Virus record (IMG/VR): IMGVR_UViG_3300031857_000558
Location: 1-37,842 of that record
DNA: 37,842 nucleotides
Strand: one strand, 5' to 3'
From: a virus
Shown: piece by piece, positions 26,073 through 37,842 of the stretch
How positions within the stretch are numbered: position 1 is the first letter of the stretch
How the letters are laid out: the number at the start of each line of letters is the position of its first letter
The notes under the pieces: generated by a model
Told to the model about the DNA's origin: nothing
The model's database searches: none
Seen by the model: only the letters and a program-made list of their open reading frames with translations
Translations under genes and position numbers: made by a program

Positions 26073-28561
26073 TGCAATTTTACACAAATGTCTTCCCTTA
26101 CGGCAATCGTATGCTTGTCCGTGGGTACGAAAACGGAAAGCCATTCTCACACAAACTTGATTACTATCCAACTCTTTATGTCAACTCCAAGAAAGAAGAT
26201 AGCGAGTGGCGTACATTGGATGGTGCCATTGTTGATGAGATGAAACCTGGACTGATTAAAGACACACGTGAGTTTGTTAAGCGTTACGAAGAAGTGCAGG
26301 GTTTTGACATTTATGGTAATACCAATTATGTGTGTCAATACATCAGTGACAATTATGATTATGATGTTCGCTTTGATATGGAACAGATTAAAGTCTACAC
26401 AATTGACATTGAGACTGCCACTGAGTATGGTTTCCCAGATATCAAAGCTGCCAATGAAGAAGTTCTATTGATCACTGTCAAGGATCTGGCTTCCAAACAA
26501 ATCGTGACATTCGGCTCACGTGCGTTCGTTCACAATCGTGATAATGTAGTATACAAACACTGCAACAACGAACAACATCTTCTTAAAGAGTTCATGATCT
26601 GGTGGCAAGGCAACTACCCTGATATCATTACTGGTTGGAACACTGACTTCTTTGACATGCCATATTTGGTGCGACGCATTCAACGAGAGTTGGGTGATAC
26701 ATTTGCCAACAAGATGAGTCCTTGGGGAGTTATCAATGAGCGCAAGACATTCATTAAAGGCAATGAAGAAATCCACTATGACATTCATGGTATTAGTCAG
26801 CTAGATTATCTACAACTCTACAAGAAGTTTACTTACTCGAAGCAAGAGTCATATCGTCTCGACTACATTGCTGAGCAAGAGTTGGGTGATAAGAAGAAAG
26901 AGAATCCAGGAGAATCTTTCAAAGACTTCTACACGAATCACTGGCAGGAGTTTGTTGAGTATAACATTCAAGACGTTGAACTTGTCGACCGCATGGAAGA
27001 TAAGATGCGTCTTATTGAGTTGTGTTTGACCATGGCGTATAATGCTAAGATCAATTATGAAGATGTATTCTCACAAGTACGTATGTGGGATGCCATCATT
27101 TATAATCACCTGCGTGAGCGTAAGATTGTGATTCCAGCAAAGGGATTCTCTTCTAAGGCAGAGCAGTTTGAAGGTGCGTATGTTAAAGATCCAATCATTG
27201 GTCAGCACAAGTGGCTTGCCTCGTTTGATTTAAACTCTCTGTATCCTCACTTGATCATGCAGTATAACATCAGTCCAGAAACATTGACTTCTGAAAAGAT
27301 TCCATGCAATGTCGAGAAACTTTTGACACAAGAAGTTGATACTAGCTATGCGCATCGTCGTGACTTATCGATGACTGCAAATGGTTGGTGTTATCGTAAA
27401 GATGTCAAAGGATTCATGCCTGAGCTAATGGAAAAGATGTACAAGGATCGTTCCAAGTTTAAGAAACAAATGCTTGCCATTGAACAAGAGTATCAGAATG
27501 ATAAAACTAAAGTCAATTTGCTGAAAGAAATTAGCCGTTTGAATAACCTTCAGATGGCTATGAAGATTGCATTGAACTCTGCCTATGGTGCCATGGGTAA
27601 TCAGTATTTCCGATACTTCGATATCCGTATGGCTGAAGGTATTACAACTTCTGGTCAGTTGTCCATTCGTTGGATGGCTAACAAGTTGAATGTCTTTATG
27701 AACAAGACGCTAAAGACTACTGATGTTGATTATGTTGTTGCCATTGATACTGACTCAATTTATCTTACACTTGAGGTATTGATTGAACGTGTTTGCGTGG
27801 GTAAAACTACCGAACAGAAAATCAAGACTATGGATAAGATTTGCGAGGAAGTTCTGCAGCCATTCATTGATACAGGTTATCAAGAGTTGGCAAAGTACAT
27901 GAATGCTTATTCGCAAAAGATGGTCATGAAGCGAGAAGTTCTAGCCGACAAAGCCATCTGGACTGCCAAGAAGCGATACATTCTTAATGTGCACAACTCA
28001 GAGGGTGTTCAGTTTGCCAAACCTAAGTTGAAGGTTATGGGTCTTGAGATGGTTAAGTCATCGACACCAGCAGTCATTCGTAGCAAGCTGAAAGAATTCA
28101 TCATGGTTATCCTTGAAGGTAGTCAAGAGAATTTACATAAGTTTGTTGGAGAGTTTCGTAAAGAGTTTAATCAATTACCTGTTGAAGAGATTGCATTCCC
28201 ACGTGGTGTTAATGGTATGAACACTTACAAAGGTTCACCAATCTATACTAAGGGTACACCGATTCATGTTCGTGGTTCTCTATTGTTCAACCACCACTGC
28301 AAGCGTTTGGGTCTTGAGAAGAAGTATCAAGCAATCAAAGATGGTGACAAGATCAAGTTCGTGTATGTCAAGAAGCCTAATCCATTCCAAGAAGATGTGA
28401 TTGCATTTCCTCAAGAACTGCCTAAAGAATTCGGCATACATAGTTATGTAGATTACGATTTACAGTTCGAGAAAGTTTTCCTCGATGCGCTTCAAACAGT
28501 TATTGAACCGCTGGGTTGGAAGACTGAAGAACAAAGTTCACTGGAGGATTTCTTTGGATAA
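26072..28561 (+). CDS. 43: DNA polymerase, family B (T4 gp43-like)
   Basis: The replicative polymerase with proofreading. The 829-residue product (T4 gp43 is 898) has exonuclease motifs IDIETATEYG near 111, WNTDFFDMPYL and YNIQDVELV. Its polymerase motifs are DLNSLYPHLI near 387 (motif A), KIALNSAYGAMGNQ near 500 (motif B) and DTDS near 558 (motif C). I start at the ATG overlapping the dexA stop; the longer frame from 26027 begins inside dexA. No intron or split is present, although gene 43 is split in some T4-like phages. Confidence 0.97.
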   Translation: MQFYTNVFPYGNRMLVRGYENGKPFSHKLDYYPTLYVNSKKEDSEWRTLDGAIVDEMKPGLIKDTREFVKRYEEVQGFDIYGNTNYVCQYISDNYDYDVRFDMEQIKVYTIDIETATEYGFPDIKAANEEVLLITVKDLASKQIVTFGSRAFVHNRDNVVYKHCNNEQHLLKEFMIWWQGNYPDIITGWNTDFFDMPYLVRRIQRELGDTFANKMSPWGVINERKTFIKGNEEIHYDIHGISQLDYLQLYKKFTYSKQESYRLDYIAEQELGDKKKENPGESFKDFYTNHWQEFVEYNIQDVELVDRMEDKMRLIELCLTMAYNAKINYEDVFSQVRMWDAIIYNHLRERKIVIPAKGFSSKAEQFEGAYVKDPIIGQHKWLASFDLNSLYPHLIMQYNISPETLTSEKIPCNVEKLLTQEVDTSYAHRRDLSMTANGWCYRKDVKGFMPELMEKMYKDRSKFKKQMLAIEQEYQNDKTKVNLLKEISRLNNLQMAMKIALNSAYGAMGNQYFRYFDIRMAEGITTSGQLSIRWMANKLNVFMNKTLKTTDVDYVVAIDTDSIYLTLEVLIERVCVGKTTEQKIKTMDKICEEVLQPFIDTGYQELAKYMNAYSQKMVMKREVLADKAIWTAKKRYILNVHNSEGVQFAKPKLKVMGLEMVKSSTPAVIRSKLKEFIMVILEGSQENLHKFVGEFRKEFNQLPVEEIAFPRGVNGMNTYKGSPIYTKGTPIHVRGSLLFNHHCKRLGLEKKYQAIKDGDKIKFVYVKKPNPFQEDVIAFPQELPKEFGIHSYVDYDLQFEKVFLDALQTVIEPLGWKTEEQSSLEDFFG

Positions 28562-29102
28562 TATTAAAGTGCTAGAGACAGGCATAGATGTCTCAAAAGT
28601 TCTTGAGCAACTTAAAAAGCATCCAAGCGATTGGGGTGCTCAAAAGGATATAGAAGGTACTGGCGATCTAGTAACAGACATGGGGTTTCCGAAAATAGAA
28701 GCTGGTGTCTTGCAATTGGTTATTGGTGCAGTGCAGAAAGAAACTGACTATGTTGGAGATAGTGAGTTCTGTGTTCCAACACCTGCAATAAAACACCACA
28801 CTGCAGTATTTGCTATACTAAGAAAATACTTTAACGATGTAAGTCGTTGTGCATTCCTCTCACTTCCAGTTGGTGGAACAGTCGGCAAACATATTGATAT
28901 CGGAACCTACTATCAATCCAGAGATCGTTACCATCTATCCATTCAAGGAAGATATAGATACTTTGTAGGTGATGAGTATTATGACGTTGAACCTGGAACT
29001 TTGTTTTGGTTCAACAATAAACTTCCACATGGTACAGAAAACCTTGCAGATGAAGTAAGAATTACATTTGTGTTTGATGTAAAGAACCCAAAATATAGTT
29101 GA
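28554..29102 (+). CDS. 2OG-Fe(II) oxygenase, aspartyl/asparaginyl beta-hydroxylase-like
   Basis: The 182-residue product has the iron and cosubstrate signature His113-x-Asp115 (GKHIDIGTYY), His159 in LPHGTEN and Arg169 in EVRITFVF, with the family block DRYHLSIQGRYRYFVGDE and VEPGTLFWF between them. This is the Asp/Asn beta-hydroxylase (PF05118) pattern. Phage members hydroxylate unknown protein or peptide targets. The best start is the TTG at 28554, six bases after a perfect GGAGG, inside the polymerase 3' end. It precedes a promoter and the halogenase gene, so the two may act on related substrates. Confidence 0.88.
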   Translation: MDNIKVLETGIDVSKVLEQLKKHPSDWGAQKDIEGTGDLVTDMGFPKIEAGVLQLVIGAVQKETDYVGDSEFCVPTPAIKHHTAVFAILRKYFNDVSRCAFLSLPVGGTVGKHIDIGTYYQSRDRYHLSIQGRYRYFVGDEYYDVEPGTLFWFNNKLPHGTENLADEVRITFVFDVKNPKYS

Positions 29103-29153: not shown

Positions 29154-30530
29154 ATGAAAGTTAATAACATTTGTATCTTTGGTGCAGGATCTGCTGGTTG
29201 GATAACTGCACTTTCTATAAAGTCGCATTTACCAGAGGTGAATGTAACTTTACTATCTTCCAATAAAGTTCCTACTATTGGAGTTGGAGAAAGCACACAA
29301 TTAGATCTTGTTGAATTACTCCATGGTGCTGGTATTAATGTTAATGATTTCATTCAACAAACTGATGCTACATTAAAACATGGAATTTATTACAAGAATT
29401 GGAATACCAAAGATTCAGAATATTGGCATGCATTTACAAATTTGACTGAAACTGGATATTATACACGTGCTCATTTGTATCATAAGTTTCATAATATGCA
29501 ACCAGAAGCATATCCTCTGAAAGATTATTATTCAAATGTTCATCCAAGTTATACGCAATGCGTAACTCATAATAGAAGTTCTTCTGACATGCCATTTGCT
29601 TTGCATGTCGATGCTTCTAAAATGGCAGAGTACTTGAGAAACTTCTTGACCCCACATATAACCATTATTGATTTTGACGAGTTTTCAGTTAATAAATCAT
29701 CAAACAAGATAGACTCTATTGATGTTGATGGTAACATCGTAACTGCAGATTTATATGTGGATTGTTCTGGATTCAATAGAGTTCTTGCTTCTCATATTGA
29801 TGGTTTTATTGAGGATAATTATGATTCTAATGTTAACTCTGCTATTTTCGGTAGGGTTAATTATGGTTCAGTTATTAGAAATCCGTATACACTAGCTGAT
29901 GCTCAGGATTGTGGATGGATTTGGAAAGCACCACTACAAAGTAAAGTTGGTAGTGGATATGTGTTCAACGATAATTTCTGTGATGTTGAAACTGCTAAAG
30001 AACACTTCATTAAATATTGGGGTGGTTCAGTAAGAGAAGAAACAGTTCGCTCTGTTAAGTTCTCATCTAGTTCGTTGAAGAATCCTTGGGTTTCTAATGT
30101 GGTATGTAATGGTCTTTCAGCTGGGTTTGTAGAGCCATTAGAAGCCACTGGTATTTCTTGGTTTATACAAGGAGCTAAATCATTATGTAGAATTCTAAAG
30201 AATCGCTACTATGATGAAGATACGCAGATGAAACATAATTCTTTAATGCGTATGTACGTTGAGGATGTGCAAGATTTTGTTGATGTTCATTATTCTCTTT
30301 CACAAAGAAGAGATACTGAATTCTGGAGATACCAGACAAGCAGACCTAGAAGCGATAGGCTTATGGCAAGACTAGAGTTATATTCAAACCAAATGCCAAC
30401 TAAGAGTAACAGAGAAGGTTATAACTGGGCATTTAATGATGTTTCTTGGTTAGATATTCTAACAGGATATGGGTTTAAGATGAATACCAATAATATCCCA
30501 GAAGATATTAAATATACTTTTTATAGATAA
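29154..30530 (+). CDS. Flavin-dependent (tryptophan-type) halogenase
   Basis: The 458-residue product shows the FAD motif GAGSAG (10-15), GVGEST (43-48), FAD-contact DCSGF near 203, the halogenase motif WIWKAP (Trp255, Trp257) and GSGYVF. Compared from memory with PrnA, the catalytic Lys79 aligns with Lys75 (TLKHGI) and Glu346 with Glu330 (VEPLEATGI), so both active-site residues are kept. These enzymes use FADH2, oxygen and halide to halogenate aromatic rings. A cyanophage homologue, VirX1, iodinates many substrates in vitro. It sits between polymerase and uvsX with its own promoter, next to a thioredoxin. The natural substrate is unknown. It is shorter than PrnA or RebH (about 530). Confidence 0.93.
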   Translation: MKVNNICIFGAGSAGWITALSIKSHLPEVNVTLLSSNKVPTIGVGESTQLDLVELLHGAGINVNDFIQQTDATLKHGIYYKNWNTKDSEYWHAFTNLTETGYYTRAHLYHKFHNMQPEAYPLKDYYSNVHPSYTQCVTHNRSSSDMPFALHVDASKMAEYLRNFLTPHITIIDFDEFSVNKSSNKIDSIDVDGNIVTADLYVDCSGFNRVLASHIDGFIEDNYDSNVNSAIFGRVNYGSVIRNPYTLADAQDCGWIWKAPLQSKVGSGYVFNDNFCDVETAKEHFIKYWGGSVREETVRSVKFSSSSLKNPWVSNVVCNGLSAGFVEPLEATGISWFIQGAKSLCRILKNRYYDEDTQMKHNSLMRMYVEDVQDFVDVHYSLSQRRDTEFWRYQTSRPRSDRLMARLELYSNQMPTKSNREGYNWAFNDVSWLDILTGYGFKMNTNNIPEDIKYTFYR

Positions 30531-33548: not shown

Positions 33549-34850
33549 ATGGTAAAAGTTATTGTAGCAGATAGAAAACATGATTGTCAACACCTGCTTG
33601 GTCAGTTCGTTGATGAGAGTCACTATGACTTGTTGGTTGAAGAAGATTGTGACATTTATATGCCACTTCCTCCAGGTGCAGAGGAAACATATGGCGAAGA
33701 ACGTATCGTTTTTAAATTTCGCAAGAACTACTTCAGTAAAGAACAGCAAGACCAAGCATATGCTGGTTTACGGGAAGCTGCAATTGAAACGCAGAATCGT
33801 GGACTTGCAGCTGGACCACGTGGTGAAAAGCTAGGTAATCGTGAGTGGGTTACCGAGTATGAGTACGACATCGTTGATTACTTCTTGAAGCCATCTGAGA
33901 ATCTTTTTGGTGAAGATCCAATTGAAGAGATTCGCAAGAAGTATGCTGGTAAGAAACCAGAGATCTCTAATCGTGCACGTGTATGGTCTATTGATCGTGT
34001 GAAGAAAGAGAAGTTCAATTTCGAAGAATGGATTGAGCATGCTCGTAAACTATCACAAGATGATGCAAAGAAAGAAGCTGTTCACGTTGCTGAAGATCTA
34101 ATCTGCGCAACTACATACGCCAACTCAGTCAACTCTGGTATTGCTGGATGGTTTGATCGTTACCCACGTATTCCTTATGGTCGTGCGACAGCTTACACTG
34201 CCAAGAATCCAGAGAAGTTTGCCATGGCTTTCCCATTCCTACAGCAACTTGCTCAAGGATTTAAGGATCTTCTTCCATGGCGTTACAACAATCAGATGGA
34301 AGCTGCCAAGAAATTAGATCAATCATTCTTAGTTCCTGGAACTCCATTCACAACAGTGACTGTGAATAAAACATTCCGCACTGCTGCTCACTGTGATGCT
34401 GGTGATTTCACTGAAGGTTTGTCTAACCTGTTGACACTGTCTAATGATGGTAAGTATTCAGGTGGTTATTTGATTGCACCTGAGTATCGTGTTGCAGTTA
34501 ATGTACGTCCAGGAGACTTGCTACTGATTAACAATCACGAAGTTATGCATGGCAATACACCTATCGTTTGCGAAGAAGGATCTGAGCGTATCTCATTGGT
34601 AGTTTACTTCCGTGAGAAAATGCTTGAGTTGGGTAGCAAAGAGTATGAAGACTGTCGTTTTAACTTTGTTGAATCACGCAGACTAAACAAAGAGCATCCA
34701 GAGTGGCGTCATCTTTGGAATGGTGTATCAGCATCTATGTGGACATCTGATGAGTGGTATGAATACTGCGAAAGCAAACTGGGTCGTGAAACCTTATTGA
34801 AGTATCATCCAGAAGCTGAGAAAGCATCTTCACTTGAAGGATTCTTCTGA
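33549..34850 (+). CDS. TET/JBP-like 2OG-Fe(II) dioxygenase
   Basis: The 433-residue product has a C-terminal double-stranded beta-helix core. TTVTVNKTFRTAAHCDAGDF supplies His281 and Asp283, GKYSGGYLIAP is the middle strand, VRPGDLLLI follows, then His334 in EVMHGNTP and Arg347 in ERISLVVYF. The VN-x3-RTA-x-H-x-D-x-GDF pattern is what I know from trypanosome JBP1 and phage TET/JBP relatives, which oxidise thymine or 5-methylcytosine methyl groups in DNA. The N-terminal 250 residues are of unknown fold. The gene ends in a TGATG overlap with a glutamine amidotransferase. A protein hydroxylase of another 2OG subfamily is the main alternative. Confidence 0.82.
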   Translation: MVKVIVADRKHDCQHLLGQFVDESHYDLLVEEDCDIYMPLPPGAEETYGEERIVFKFRKNYFSKEQQDQAYAGLREAAIETQNRGLAAGPRGEKLGNREWVTEYEYDIVDYFLKPSENLFGEDPIEEIRKKYAGKKPEISNRARVWSIDRVKKEKFNFEEWIEHARKLSQDDAKKEAVHVAEDLICATTYANSVNSGIAGWFDRYPRIPYGRATAYTAKNPEKFAMAFPFLQQLAQGFKDLLPWRYNNQMEAAKKLDQSFLVPGTPFTTVTVNKTFRTAAHCDAGDFTEGLSNLLTLSNDGKYSGGYLIAPEYRVAVNVRPGDLLLINNHEVMHGNTPIVCEEGSERISLVVYFREKMLELGSKEYEDCRFNFVESRRLNKEHPEWRHLWNGVSASMWTSDEWYEYCESKLGRETLLKYHPEAEKASSLEGFF

Positions 34851-35545
34851 TGTGTAGCGTAATTGGTGCTGTAATCCAATCACCAACTAAGGATGATTTT
34901 GAAACCCTGCGTAGAGTTTTCCATGAGTCTAAGATTCGTGGTATGCATGCTACTGGGATTTCTATTGTTCTAAACAATAAAATTGTTACATTTAAAGAAT
35001 CAGTTCCTGCAGACAAGTTTAATCATTTGGACAATTTAGAAGAGATGGTCAATGAGGATGGTAATCTTTACCTCATTGGTCATTGCAGATATAGCACCAG
35101 TGACTTGGAATATAATCAACCAATGGCAGATGATACTAAAAGCATTGTTCACAATGGTGTCATCTCTCAAGAGTCTCCAGAGAAATGGAAAGACTTGTAT
35201 GGTTATGACTGCATGACTAAAAACGATAGCGAGTTAGTTCTTCACTCTAAAGATCCATTGAGAGAATATTCTAACATGTCAATGGGTGTATGTGAACTTT
35301 CGCTTGATAAGAAAGTTCGTTTCTATCGTAATGGCAAGCGTCCGATTTATTTTACTTTATTTAATAATGGATGTATAATTACTTCTACTAAAGACATTGC
35401 CAAACGTGCAGGTCTTGATATGCCAGTTGAAGTTCCTATGAATATGTACATGACAGTTGATGGTTACTTATCAATGAACATGGAAAGAGTTGATATTATT
35501 AATAAAGATTTGCAGGGGATAGAATATGAAACAGTACGCATCTGA
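34850..35545 (+). CDS. Class-II (Ntn) glutamine amidotransferase
   Basis: The 231-residue product begins MCSVIGA, so Cys2 becomes the N-terminal nucleophile after Met removal. It carries the family's GHCRYSTS and VHNGVIS strands and a later NDSELVL block. These domains release ammonia from glutamine for a partner synthetase. There is no synthetase domain fused here, but the next gene is an amidoligase, the natural acceptor. Translation is coupled to both neighbours (TGATG at the start and a 20-base overlap at the end). Confidence 0.93.
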   Translation: MCSVIGAVIQSPTKDDFETLRRVFHESKIRGMHATGISIVLNNKIVTFKESVPADKFNHLDNLEEMVNEDGNLYLIGHCRYSTSDLEYNQPMADDTKSIVHNGVISQESPEKWKDLYGYDCMTKNDSELVLHSKDPLREYSNMSMGVCELSLDKKVRFYRNGKRPIYFTLFNNGCIITSTKDIAKRAGLDMPVEVPMNMYMTVDGYLSMNMERVDIINKDLQGIEYETVRI

Positions 35546-36404
35546 TAAGTTTACATGGGGTTATGAGATTGAATGGGGTGATGTAGATCGTCGTTTGACT
35601 CCACCTGAACATCTTGGTAAATGGGAATTTGCTGAAACTGATATTGTAAACATTCATGAACCATTCAAGTATGTTGCTTGCGATCCCATGGGTACTGAAC
35701 CTTATATGGGTGGAGAGATTAACACCAAGCCGACTGCTACTTGGAAAGAGCAAGTAGATCGTGTGATGGAACTACATCAGTTCTTTGTTGATAATGGCAA
35801 TCAACCTTCTGCTTCTTGCGTCAATCATGGTCACCTTCATGTGTTTGTTCCAGGACTTAAAGATGATGTAGCTTCGTTAAAGAAGTTGGTTGCTTATATC
35901 AAAGCCAATCAAGCAGACACCATTGAGTCATGTTATGGTTTCTACGAGACTGGACAGATGAAAGGTTCCAAGGGTGCTAAGATGTATCTCAAGTATGATG
36001 GTGGTCGTGAGATGCCAGAATACATGTGTGACAATATCATCAATCTAGCAACAGACTTTGAACACTTTATCAAGTTGCATGCTGCTGGTAAAGATGGTGT
36101 ATCAATGGGTCGTCCATTCCGCTACGCAATCAATACTTACTGTATGAAACACACAGGTACAATCGAGTTCCGCTGTTTCCGTTCATCAACTAAACGTGAC
36201 GAGATTGAAGCGCAGTTTCGTTTTGCAGAGAAGTTTATTGATGCTGCGCTAAACGATGGACCAAGTGTTAAAGAAATTCTTGCTGCAGATACCTACAAGT
36301 TCCCACCATTCGTTTGGGATCTTAATGAGTACATTGGATGGATCAATACAAAGTGGGATAAAGAGCGTGGCAACAAACAACGTGAATACCTTGCAGTTGC
36401 GTAA
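35526..36404 (+). CDS. Amidoligase (COOH-NH2 ligase, glutamine-synthetase fold)
   Basis: The 292-residue product matches the amidoligase enzyme family (PF12224 type): FTWGYEIEWGD with Glu14 and Glu16 for metal binding, GGEINTKP, the NHGHLHVFVPG strand (family form GLHVHV) and EFRCF. The reaction is ATP-dependent amide formation between a carboxylate and ammonia or an amine. It has an AGGGGA ribosome site. Its pairing with a glutamine amidotransferase and an acetyltransferase matches gene neighbourhoods that comparative genomics has predicted to build unusual peptides or conjugates. The substrate is unknown. Confidence 0.9.
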   Translation: MKQYASDKFTWGYEIEWGDVDRRLTPPEHLGKWEFAETDIVNIHEPFKYVACDPMGTEPYMGGEINTKPTATWKEQVDRVMELHQFFVDNGNQPSASCVNHGHLHVFVPGLKDDVASLKKLVAYIKANQADTIESCYGFYETGQMKGSKGAKMYLKYDGGREMPEYMCDNIINLATDFEHFIKLHAAGKDGVSMGRPFRYAINTYCMKHTGTIEFRCFRSSTKRDEIEAQFRFAEKFIDAALNDGPSVKEILAADTYKFPPFVWDLNEYIGWINTKWDKERGNKQREYLAVA

Positions 36405-36936
36405 ATGTTCCAGAGATGAATTTGTCGCAGCAATCACTGACGACAAAGCCGATGGTTTTGCCAAGACATTCAAAGCCAAAGCAGATATGCAAGAGCAGTG
36501 GGATGAATGTTATGGCGCATTTAATGACGATGGCGAATTGATGGGTGCAATTATTACTACTCTTGGAAAAACTAATCCAAGAGTGGCAAACCTACAACTT
36601 CTTCATACGTTCAACAAGCATCGTCGTAAAGGTGTTGCCAAAGAATTAACCTTAACTTCGTTTCAACTAGTCAGACTTGCTGGTGCAGTTTACTTTAGAG
36701 TTTCTGCAGAACCAGAAGCTGTTGCATTTTATGAAAGCATTGGGTTCAAGTTCTGGGGTAAACAAAAGAGTGGGTGTAGCCTGAGTATGTTTAAAGTTGC
36801 AGGCGATACTATTCCAGAAGGTATTTACGATGATAAAGATCCAGTCTTACATAAAGCACTTTATAGTGGTCGGAAGGGAAGCCTAGCCTTGTCCTACATC
36901 GTGCAAGAAAGTGTTGACTTAAATTCATTTCTGTAG
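36382..36936 (+). CDS. GNAT-family N-acetyltransferase
   Basis: The 184-residue product (from GTG) has the acetyl-CoA loop RRKGVAKEL in motif A, preceded by the strand RVANLQLLHTF, and the motif B region AVAFYESIGFKFWG typical of GNAT enzymes. The frame has no ATG near its start. I prefer the GTG at 36382, which lies 20 bases before the amidoligase stop; TTG codons at 36391 and 36397 are alternatives. The strong amidotransferase-amidoligase-GNAT linkage suggests it acylates the same product. Confidence 0.88.
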   Translation: MNTLQLRKCSRDEFVAAITDDKADGFAKTFKAKADMQEQWDECYGAFNDDGELMGAIITTLGKTNPRVANLQLLHTFNKHRRKGVAKELTLTSFQLVRLAGAVYFRVSAEPEAVAFYESIGFKFWGKQKSGCSLSMFKVAGDTIPEGIYDDKDPVLHKALYSGRKGSLALSYIVQESVDLNSFL

Positions 36937-36942
36937 TATAAT
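36914..36942 (+). promoter_or_regulatory. Sigma70-type early promoter (TTAAATTC type)
   Basis: TTGACT (36914-36919), 17 bp beginning TAAATTC, TATAAT (36937-36942). The -35 and spacer lie inside the end of the GNAT gene. Confidence 0.88.
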
Positions 36943-36971
36943 AGTATTATCGAAACTTGATCTTTTATATT

Positions 36972-37550
36972 ATGGCTTCCAATCATACCAAGGCATCTGC
37001 TATCACTGAACGTATTGCAGCTGAATACTTTTGGGAACAAGGTTATAAAACCAAATACTCTGGAATGAGTAAAAAAGTTTTTCTTCAAATGACTGAAGAT
37101 GGAGATTTATCTTTATCAAATGTTTTGGAAAATTTTATCACTCATATCAATCCAAAGAAAAAAAGATCCAACGAAACTGGCATGGATTTTACTGACAAGA
37201 GTGATGCTAAGTATATGTCAACTCGGATCAAAGTTGTCAAAACTAATCACACTAAAAAAGACGGCACAGTCTCGCATTATCAAACTAGAATGCTAAATTG
37301 CTGTCTGTCGGGTAAGTCACTACGCAATAAAGTTGGAACACTGCGAATAGCAATCACTGTTTATAATCCAGAAGATGACAAATGTAGCAGAGTTTTACTC
37401 GTACGTATTCCTTACCCTCAGTGGAATGATCTTACAGATAAAGGTGGTAATTTGAACTTCGAGTTCAATCTTGATGGCACTATGAAAGATAATCATTTTA
37501 AAAAATATGGTAGCTATGTATGTGATGATGTCACAGAATTTTGTAAATAA
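36972..37550 (+). CDS. Unknown protein, possibly nuclease-like
   Basis: The 192-residue product is basic. A helical N-terminus (AITERIAAEYFWEQGYKTKY) leads to the segment GMDFTDKSDAKYMSTRIKVV, where D-x5-D-A-K resembles the PD-(D/E)xK nuclease site, although the spacing is tight and I am not sure. The second half is beta-rich with TLRIAITVYN and RVLLVRIPYP. The ATG at 36972 is 30 bases after the -10, with a poor ribosome site. It overlaps the next gene by one base (TAATG), so it belongs functionally with that modification-type gene. Confidence 0.75.
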   Translation: MASNHTKASAITERIAAEYFWEQGYKTKYSGMSKKVFLQMTEDGDLSLSNVLENFITHINPKKKRSNETGMDFTDKSDAKYMSTRIKVVKTNHTKKDGTVSHYQTRMLNCCLSGKSLRNKVGTLRIAITVYNPEDDKCSRVLLVRIPYPQWNDLTDKGGNLNFEFNLDGTMKDNHFKKYGSYVCDDVTEFCK

Positions 37551-37842
37551 TGGATTATAGATCAAACGAAAATAGACGTGAAGCGTTCATTCGCTGGTAC
37601 GCATGGTCAATGAAATATGATGACTGTGATCCAGCGGTATGGGCTACGAACTATCTAAACAAACGATATGAACACAATGATGAACAGCGTTTATGGTTAG
37701 CTTGGCTTTACGGCAGCACCTACTACCTTCCAACTTCTTGGGTTCTCATGAATGAATTCCCAGACTTTGAGTTGGCAACAGTAGATCGTATTACCCAATG
37801 GAACACTGCCAACTACAAACGACTTCGTTATCAAACTGATAC
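37550..37842 (+). CDS. Start of a protein like alpha-glutamyl/putrescinyl-thymine pyrophosphorylase (amino acid:DNA transferase); 3' truncated
   Basis: The window ends inside this frame after 97 residues. The visible part reads RREAFIRWYAWSMKYDDCDP, then ANDEQ-type NDEQRLWLAWLYGSTYYLPT, then MNEFPDFELATVDRITQWN and YKRLRYQTD. This pattern recalls the phage family predicted as aGPT-Pplase or amino acid:DNA transferase, which in hypermodified phages attaches amino acids or polyamines to pyrophosphorylated 5-hydroxymethyl-pyrimidines in DNA. The match is from memory. The start overlaps the previous stop (TAATG). Confidence 0.75.
   Translation, partial: MDYRSNENRREAFIRWYAWSMKYDDCDPAVWATNYLNKRYEHNDEQRLWLAWLYGSTYYLPTSWVLMNEFPDFELATVDRITQWNTANYKRLRYQTD

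Follow-up and report, generated by a model that had tools for sequence, protein, structure and literature searches.

What would a bacterial virus do with a TET/JBP-like dioxygenase, a glutamine amidotransferase, an amidoligase, an acetyltransferase and an amino acid:DNA transferase encoded almost end to start? The question is raised by the last 4.3 kb of the viral record IMGVR_UViG_3300031857_000558, of a virus met in metagenomic DNA only. The window, i.e. the whole stretch that we analysed, comprises positions 1 to 37,842 of that record (37.8 kb). A reading of the letters alone, hereafter the original prediction, had taken this end of the window for a candidate locus of DNA hypermodification or conjugate synthesis. 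Our comparison with related loci indicates that it very probably performs DNA hypermodification, and that it is probably the thymidine-hypermodification cassette of a T4-like phage whose TET/JBP enzyme makes a hydroxymethyl handle inside DNA. All six open reading frames are present, in the position and order proposed:

33549-34850, plus strand: TET/JBP 2-oxoglutarate/Fe(II) dioxygenase, 433 amino acids (PF12851, predicted model, invariant residues)
34850-35545, plus strand: stand-alone class-II glutamine amidotransferase (GAT) domain, 231 amino acids (PF13522, conserved residues)
35526-36404, plus strand: amidoligase of predicted glutamine-synthetase/carboxylate-amine ligase fold, 292 amino acids (weak PF12224 match, predicted structure, motifs)
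36367-36936, plus strand: GNAT acetyltransferase-like protein (PF13673; start inferred, GTG)
36972-37550, plus strand: insert gene, 192 amino acids (comparison of its slot among relatives, promoter-like site)
37550-37842, plus strand: ADDT (aGPT-Pplase clade 2), N-terminal 97 amino acids only, cut by the contig end (phrog_3271)

The near-continuous overlaps that had been proposed were found as well. The TET and GAT genes share 1 nt and the GAT and amidoligase genes 20 nt, the GNAT gene appears to begin at a GTG (36367) inside the amidoligase gene, and a 35-nt gap separates it from the 36972-37550 gene, which in turn overlaps the ADDT gene by 1 nt. The family assignments of the original prediction, made from visible motifs, were borne out by Pfam, by predicted structures and, for the truncated last gene, by a full-length relative. 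The dioxygenase matches Tet_JBP (PF12851, E 2e-26), and a structure search, the check set beforehand for this protein, places its AlphaFold model (mean predicted local distance difference test score, pLDDT, 88) with TET enzymes, the best PDB matches being TET2, CcTet, NgTET1 and CMD1. Its iron and 2-oxoglutarate residues H281, D283, H334 and R347 are invariant across the alignments, so that the HxD...H...R active site and the TET fold are found together. GAT matches GATase_6 (PF13522, E 2e-8) and has the class-II glutaminase active site of N-terminal Cys, Arg, Asn-Gly and Asp, with Cys2 (the nucleophile), Arg80, Asn102-Gly103 and Asp126 kept in at least 97% of 118 aligned sequences. The GNAT protein matches Acetyltransf_10 (PF13673, E 1e-10). 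The 97 residues of the partial ADDT match phrog_3271 (E 4e-17) and are 95% identical, over the common N-terminal part, to a 339-residue protein of the related locus L007 (4292-5311), which belongs to PF18724 (E 4e-22, 79.5 bits against a curated cut-off of 26.2). This family is named ADDT, for amino acid:DNA transferase, and is called aGPT-Pplase clade 2 by other annotators.

The amidoligase was assigned through its predicted structure, because a phmmer search of the PDB sequences returned nothing useful for it (nor for GAT or ADDT) and its Pfam match is weak: Amidoligase_2 (PF12224) is hit with E 0.006, below the cut-off, in the window and with E 5e-5, above the cut-off, in a distant homologue at the same position of locus L022. 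The 50 PDB entries listed for the model (mean pLDDT 90.9) are glutamine synthetases, glutamate-cysteine ligases, related bifunctional glutathione synthetases and YbdK-type ligases, with Z between 9.6 and 11.1; Foldseek gave no match to the same model with E < 0.001. GxExE and HxH motifs are present; the residues E14, E16, E64, H103 and H105 are invariant in 36 sequences and, judging from the model, would bind metal, so that the carboxylate-amine ligase fold and the putative metal-binding glutamates of a glutamine-synthetase-fold amidoligase occur together. Searching again with the amidoligase alignment recovered almost the same near relatives.

What lies past the contig end can be seen in L007 and L086, whose cassette proteins, where shared with the window, have 79-99% identity (97% for the amidoligase). 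There the remainder of ADDT is followed by a small gene (c10) and by a P-loop kinase of the Ploopntkinase3 family (PF18751, 37 and 43 bits, cut-off 27), so that in these relatives a hydroxymethyl-forming enzyme, a kinase and ADDT, the combination typical of thymidine hypermodification, stand together as TET, Ploopntkinase3 and ADDT. The kinase would supply the step expected between hydroxymethylation and amino-acid transfer. The original prediction had proposed extending the sequence beyond 37842 in search of a hydroxymethylpyrimidine kinase, a thymidylate-synthase (TS) homologue or a DNA methyltransferase; the relatives yielded the first, in a family that accompanies ADDT in another phage, and of the other two only a TS homologue in phage Cr30.

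The grouping of these genes is more than chance, because 73 distinct loci carry an amidoligase in the same setting, either 57-97% identical to that of the window or of a distant type (26-29%). Where such a locus is fully covered, i.e. has both flanks present (5 kb upstream and 7 kb downstream), TET, GAT, ADDT and kinase genes accompany the amidoligase in 15 of 15 cases and a GNAT gene in 14 of 15. Around GAT, the TET, ADDT and kinase genes occur at 21 of 21 fully covered loci and the amidoligase at 17, and ADDT loci hold TET and kinase in 14 of 14 cases. In L118-L120, L130, L142 and L194 the TET gene lies downstream of ADDT and the gene set is unchanged despite the reordering. The cassette is thus conserved as a unit, and its genes are under purifying selection, with a ratio of nonsynonymous to synonymous substitution (dN/dS) of 0.05-0.28 in the comparisons that allowed an estimate of dS.

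The insert gene at 36972-37550 does not share in this conservation. The original prediction gave it no family but listed it among the six genes of the locus, and we rejected it as a pathway enzyme: among the relatives it occurs only in L007, L087 and L088, and the slot between GNAT and ADDT (36937-37549) otherwise holds unrelated genes, GIY-YIG plus ParB-like in L086 and, as read from sequence motifs, HNH plus ParB-like in L098, L121 and L165, or is empty. The slot, often filled by homing-endonuclease-like genes, acts like an insertion site, and the 36972-37550 gene probably lies outside the pathway. A sigma-70-like promoter site (36914-36942) precedes it, although such sites are no more frequent in the region than in shuffled sequence.

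A common locus order, namely helicase, TET, cassette and a conserved downstream gene, is kept across cassette types. Other contigs carry the same TET but have, in place of the block from GAT to the kinase, a TET-associated glycosyltransferase (PF20691, E 2e-19), a GT-B glycosyltransferase (PF00534) with a cytidylyltransferase, or a glycosyltransferase-like protein without significant Pfam match. The TET of the window is about 85% identical both to those of L014 and L015, which are of the last type, and to that of L012, a locus with the full cassette. When cassette type is mapped on a quick tree of 116 TET proteins, at least eight changes of the label 'ADDT cassette' are required on well-supported branches; long branches make the details unsure. 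Known phage systems of TET and PF20691 glycosyltransferase share the TET family and, in L030-L035, the locus position, and differ in having the glycosyltransferase in place of kinase, ADDT, GAT and amidoligase; among the glycosyltransferase-type TET loci, only L223 and L199 have GAT and amidoligase genes. Since the same TET serves both kinds of cassette, these most likely build on one and the same TET product, a DNA base that would carry a hydroxymethyl group.

Several variants were observed among these loci. L223 (7601-13351) carries an amidoligase/ADDT cassette and a homologue of the TET-associated glycosyltransferase on one contig, hinting at a base that bears both kinds of group. In the cassettes with the distant amidoligase (L022:2974-3396, L199:5768-6190 and L223:11399-11821) a homologue of low-molecular-weight phosphotyrosine phosphatases (PF01451 in L022) replaces GNAT. 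An inositol-1-phosphate synthase annotated in Cr30 (L002:19293-20474) and a similar protein in L221 (2665-3825) adjoin TET and ADDT, which hints at an inositol-derived adduct.

Taken together, these genes would allow the following route. The TET enzyme would oxidise thymine of the phage DNA at its methyl group, giving 5-hydroxymethyluracil (5hmU), and the P-loop kinase encoded just past the window would phosphorylate the hydroxymethyl group. ADDT would then swap the phosphate for an amino acid joined via its amino group, leaving the carboxylate free; GAT would release ammonia from glutamine, with which the amidoligase, using ATP, would convert the carboxylate to an amide, and GNAT would acylate an amine. 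In phages, hypermodified bases guard the DNA against host nucleases, and the altered base would shield this genome in the same manner. We infer every reaction on DNA, the order of the last two steps, the product and the protective role from gene content and conserved active sites. The pyrimidine hypermodification by TET/JBP and aGPT-Pplase proposed in the original prediction, with amidoligase, GAT and GNAT as tailoring enzymes, is supported by our data with this predicted chemistry, while the amidation step in exactly the form given here is a tentative proposal, which we credit almost as much as we doubt.

A number of observations weigh against this scheme. The window ends before ADDT does and the kinase is visible in relatives only, and the assignment of the amidoligase owes more to its fold and motifs than to its sequence score. 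TET might be supplied with 5-methylcytosine (5mC) by a host methyltransferase, and pairs of GAT and amidoligase are also present in LUZ24-like phages that have neither TET nor ADDT close by. Finally, at eight TET loci with more than 4.5 kb of downstream sequence GAT is found without an amidoligase, so that its partner may be another enzyme.

The main doubt indeed concerns the role of GAT. Because relatives without an amidoligase retain GAT and a different GNAT, the ammonia could instead feed the ADDT step, acting as the nucleophile that gives 5-aminomethyluracil, whose amine the amidoligase or GNAT would then acylate with a carboxylic acid or an acetyl group. GAT also keeps closer company with ADDT than with the amidoligase: each of its 21 fully covered loci has ADDT, and four of them have no amidoligase. 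However, class-II amidotransferases normally hand ammonia to a partner synthetase, and here the amidoligase could be the partner that receives it. ADDT cassettes without GAT also exist (Cr30, L198, L219 and L221), and the known chemistry of the ADDT class concerns amino acids, as in the name of PF18724, or alkylamines, as for the transferases described in PMC6449724. We therefore regard ammonia as an unlikely nucleophile and the amino-acid transfer followed by amidation as the preferred reading.

The original prediction left the substrate as a pyrimidine, and our searches for C5-methyltransferases and TS homologues narrow it, with good probability, to thymine. The alternative is that TET oxidises 5mC, made by the host or by an unrecognised methyltransferase, to 5-hydroxymethylcytosine, which would then be phosphorylated and conjugated. 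The solved relatives TET2, NgTET1 and CcTet act on 5mC according to their PDB titles, and Burke et al. are said to have described phage TETs with this activity in 2021. Against this, a scan of 20 TET-bearing records for C5-cytosine methyltransferases (PF00145) gave no match, and the control genomes were matched. The scan covered the annotated genomes of phages Cr30, DLP6, C48C1 and S-CBWM1 as well as metagenome records as long as 168, 150 and 127 kb; most of the records are fragments, a further point to be held against thymine. A TS homologue (PF00303) was absent from 12 of 13 records, Cr30 being the sole match, so that the classical source of 5hmU, a TS-type dUMP hydroxymethylase, is not seen here. 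ThyX, which makes ordinary dTMP, is present in all five long cassette-bearing records searched.

Related cassettes of ADDT and kinase accompany TS-type enzymes, which in such phages make hydroxymethyluracil. Phage Montesquieu has an ADDT (annotated as clade 2), a pyridoxal-phosphate (PLP) enzyme and a Ploopntkinase3 kinase with a TS/pyrimidine hydroxymethylase, and in Vibrio phage D506 ADDT adjoins a 5-hydroxymethyldeoxyuridine (5hmdU) DNA kinase (HMUD2), with a TS homologue in the same region. In L198 a TET is found with a PLP enzyme and an ADDT that are 27% and 39% identical, respectively, to those of Montesquieu, and with a P-loop kinase. TET thus seems to fill the role of the TS-type hydroxymethylase as the maker of the 5hmU precursor. 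Given that no C5-methyltransferase was found in the records scanned, that a TS homologue was met in one phage and that L198 has a TET where Montesquieu has the hydroxymethylase, thymine is the likeliest base and modification of cytosine improbable. TET cassettes with a PLP-dependent enzyme and ADDT, arranged as in Montesquieu but with TET instead of the TS-type hydroxymethylase, were observed in L198 (10434-12544) and L219 (11656-14586). Restriction data exist for DLP6, a cultured relative (PMC5349666), but their wording is ambiguous on resistance to digestion and we did not use them as evidence.

GAT, the amidoligase and GNAT could also form an independent module, for cell-wall or small-molecule modification, that merely lies beside a TET-ADDT-kinase module. 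Besides the LUZ24-like pairs, this is favoured by the cell-wall and secondary-metabolite roles given for phage amidoligase and GATase in PMC10580990; an independent module of this kind has been suggested for phiEco32 and Marvin. Clusters of the phiEco32/LUZ24 type, such as that of Pseudomonas phage tf (L224), do share Amidoligase_2 and a class-II glutamine amidotransferase with the present cassette, but in phage tf the amidotransferase gene is larger, the partners are ATP-grasp and AIG2-like, and no TET, ADDT or kinase is annotated within 12.6 kb. In our cassette, the ATP-grasp and COOH-NH2 ligase type 2 genes of that cluster type were not found nearby, the partners being TET, GNAT, ADDT and kinase. 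In this lineage, moreover, the three genes sit between TET and ADDT, amidoligase and GAT accompany TET and ADDT at every fully covered locus, with the set kept on reordering, and both are missing from the glycosyltransferase-type loci other than the two named above. We consider such independence very improbable. That the TET-family enzyme and its partners act on RNA (e.g. tRNA) or on a free metabolite rather than on DNA is hardly credible, for although 2-oxoglutarate dioxygenases are versatile and tRNA undergoes amidation and acylation, ADDT and the TET-associated glycosyltransferase belong to families named for DNA or TET-linked modification and the cassette adjoins replication genes (UvsX, helicase).

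As regards known systems, Lee is said to have listed acetyltransferases in 2022 among the tailoring classes of thymidine hypermodification. The original prediction held that the combination of genes was not a described pathway, which is not the case for its core: in Rhodococcus phage Tonitrus a five-gene set that includes TET, aGPT-Pplase2 and a 5-hmU kinase has been named a thymidine hypermodification system (PMC11955845). Tonitrus and the cassette studied here share a TET-like J-binding protein, aGPT-Pplase2, a 5-hmU DNA kinase and a ParB-like nuclease domain, whereas no amidotransferase, amidoligase or GNAT is reported in Tonitrus. The thymidine hypermodification of phages M6, ViI and phiW-14, the subject of Lee et al. 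(2018, 2022) and Iyer et al. (2013), likewise proceeds from a 5hmU handle through a 5hmdU DNA kinase to transfer of an amine or amino acid and tailoring (PMC6449724). Their handle is thought to be made at the nucleotide level and incorporated as the triphosphate 5hmdUTP, whereas here TET would make it inside DNA, and we found no amidotransferase/amidoligase tailoring described for them.

Amide ligation on a DNA base has a precedent in the CmoA-CmoX-CmoY system of Synechococcus phage S-B43, because CmoY joins glycine to 5-carboxymethylcytosine in DNA in an ATP-dependent reaction, and one related ligase cluster has a glutamine-hydrolysing domain (PMC12783734). That system differs in that carboxymethylcytosine is made with carboxy-S-adenosylmethionine (Cx-SAM), that the ligase is of the AMP-forming asparagine-synthetase type and not of the glutamine-synthetase fold, and that TET and ADDT are not included. 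The core of TET, aGPT-Pplase2 and kinase is thus already known, and what may be new is the tailoring by glutamine amidotransferase, amidoligase and GNAT, for which no publication joining TET-ADDT-kinase with amidoligase and GATase was found in a search that did not extend to Iyer 2009 and 2013, Burke 2021 and Lee 2022.

The wider reading, which we hold to be evenly balanced and which we judged as a whole, is that a post-replicative thymidine hypermodification initiated by TET would end in a glutamine-derived amide, an undescribed nucleoside, and would be made by one of several interchangeable tailoring cassettes swapped around a common TET, these being of amidoligase, distant amidoligase with low-molecular-weight phosphatase, GNAT-only, PLP, inositol and glycosyltransferase type. 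The predicted route would start from ordinary thymine in finished DNA and not from a modified nucleotide pool, and would include a glutamine-dependent, amide-forming tailoring step that is absent from the literature searched. The list of swappable cassettes in many viral metagenome contigs offers candidates for enzymes that could attach new groups to DNA.

The rest of the window is that of a T4-like phage contig, with genes for the gp23 capsid protein, prohead protease, UvsW, gp44, gp45, RegA and a family B DNA polymerase, and with UvsX and a DnaB-type helicase identified via sequence and matching phage annotations. A Megablast search of phage genomes gave short matches only, to replication genes. 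Between the DNA polymerase and the thioredoxin/UvsX genes lies a full-length tryptophan halogenase (29154-30530; PF04820, E 1.5e-90), which looks like a recent acquisition because no homologue was detected in about 160 related loci searched, including the near-identical L086. It is adjoined by an aspartyl/asparaginyl beta-hydroxylase-like protein (28485-29102; PF05118, E 8e-7).

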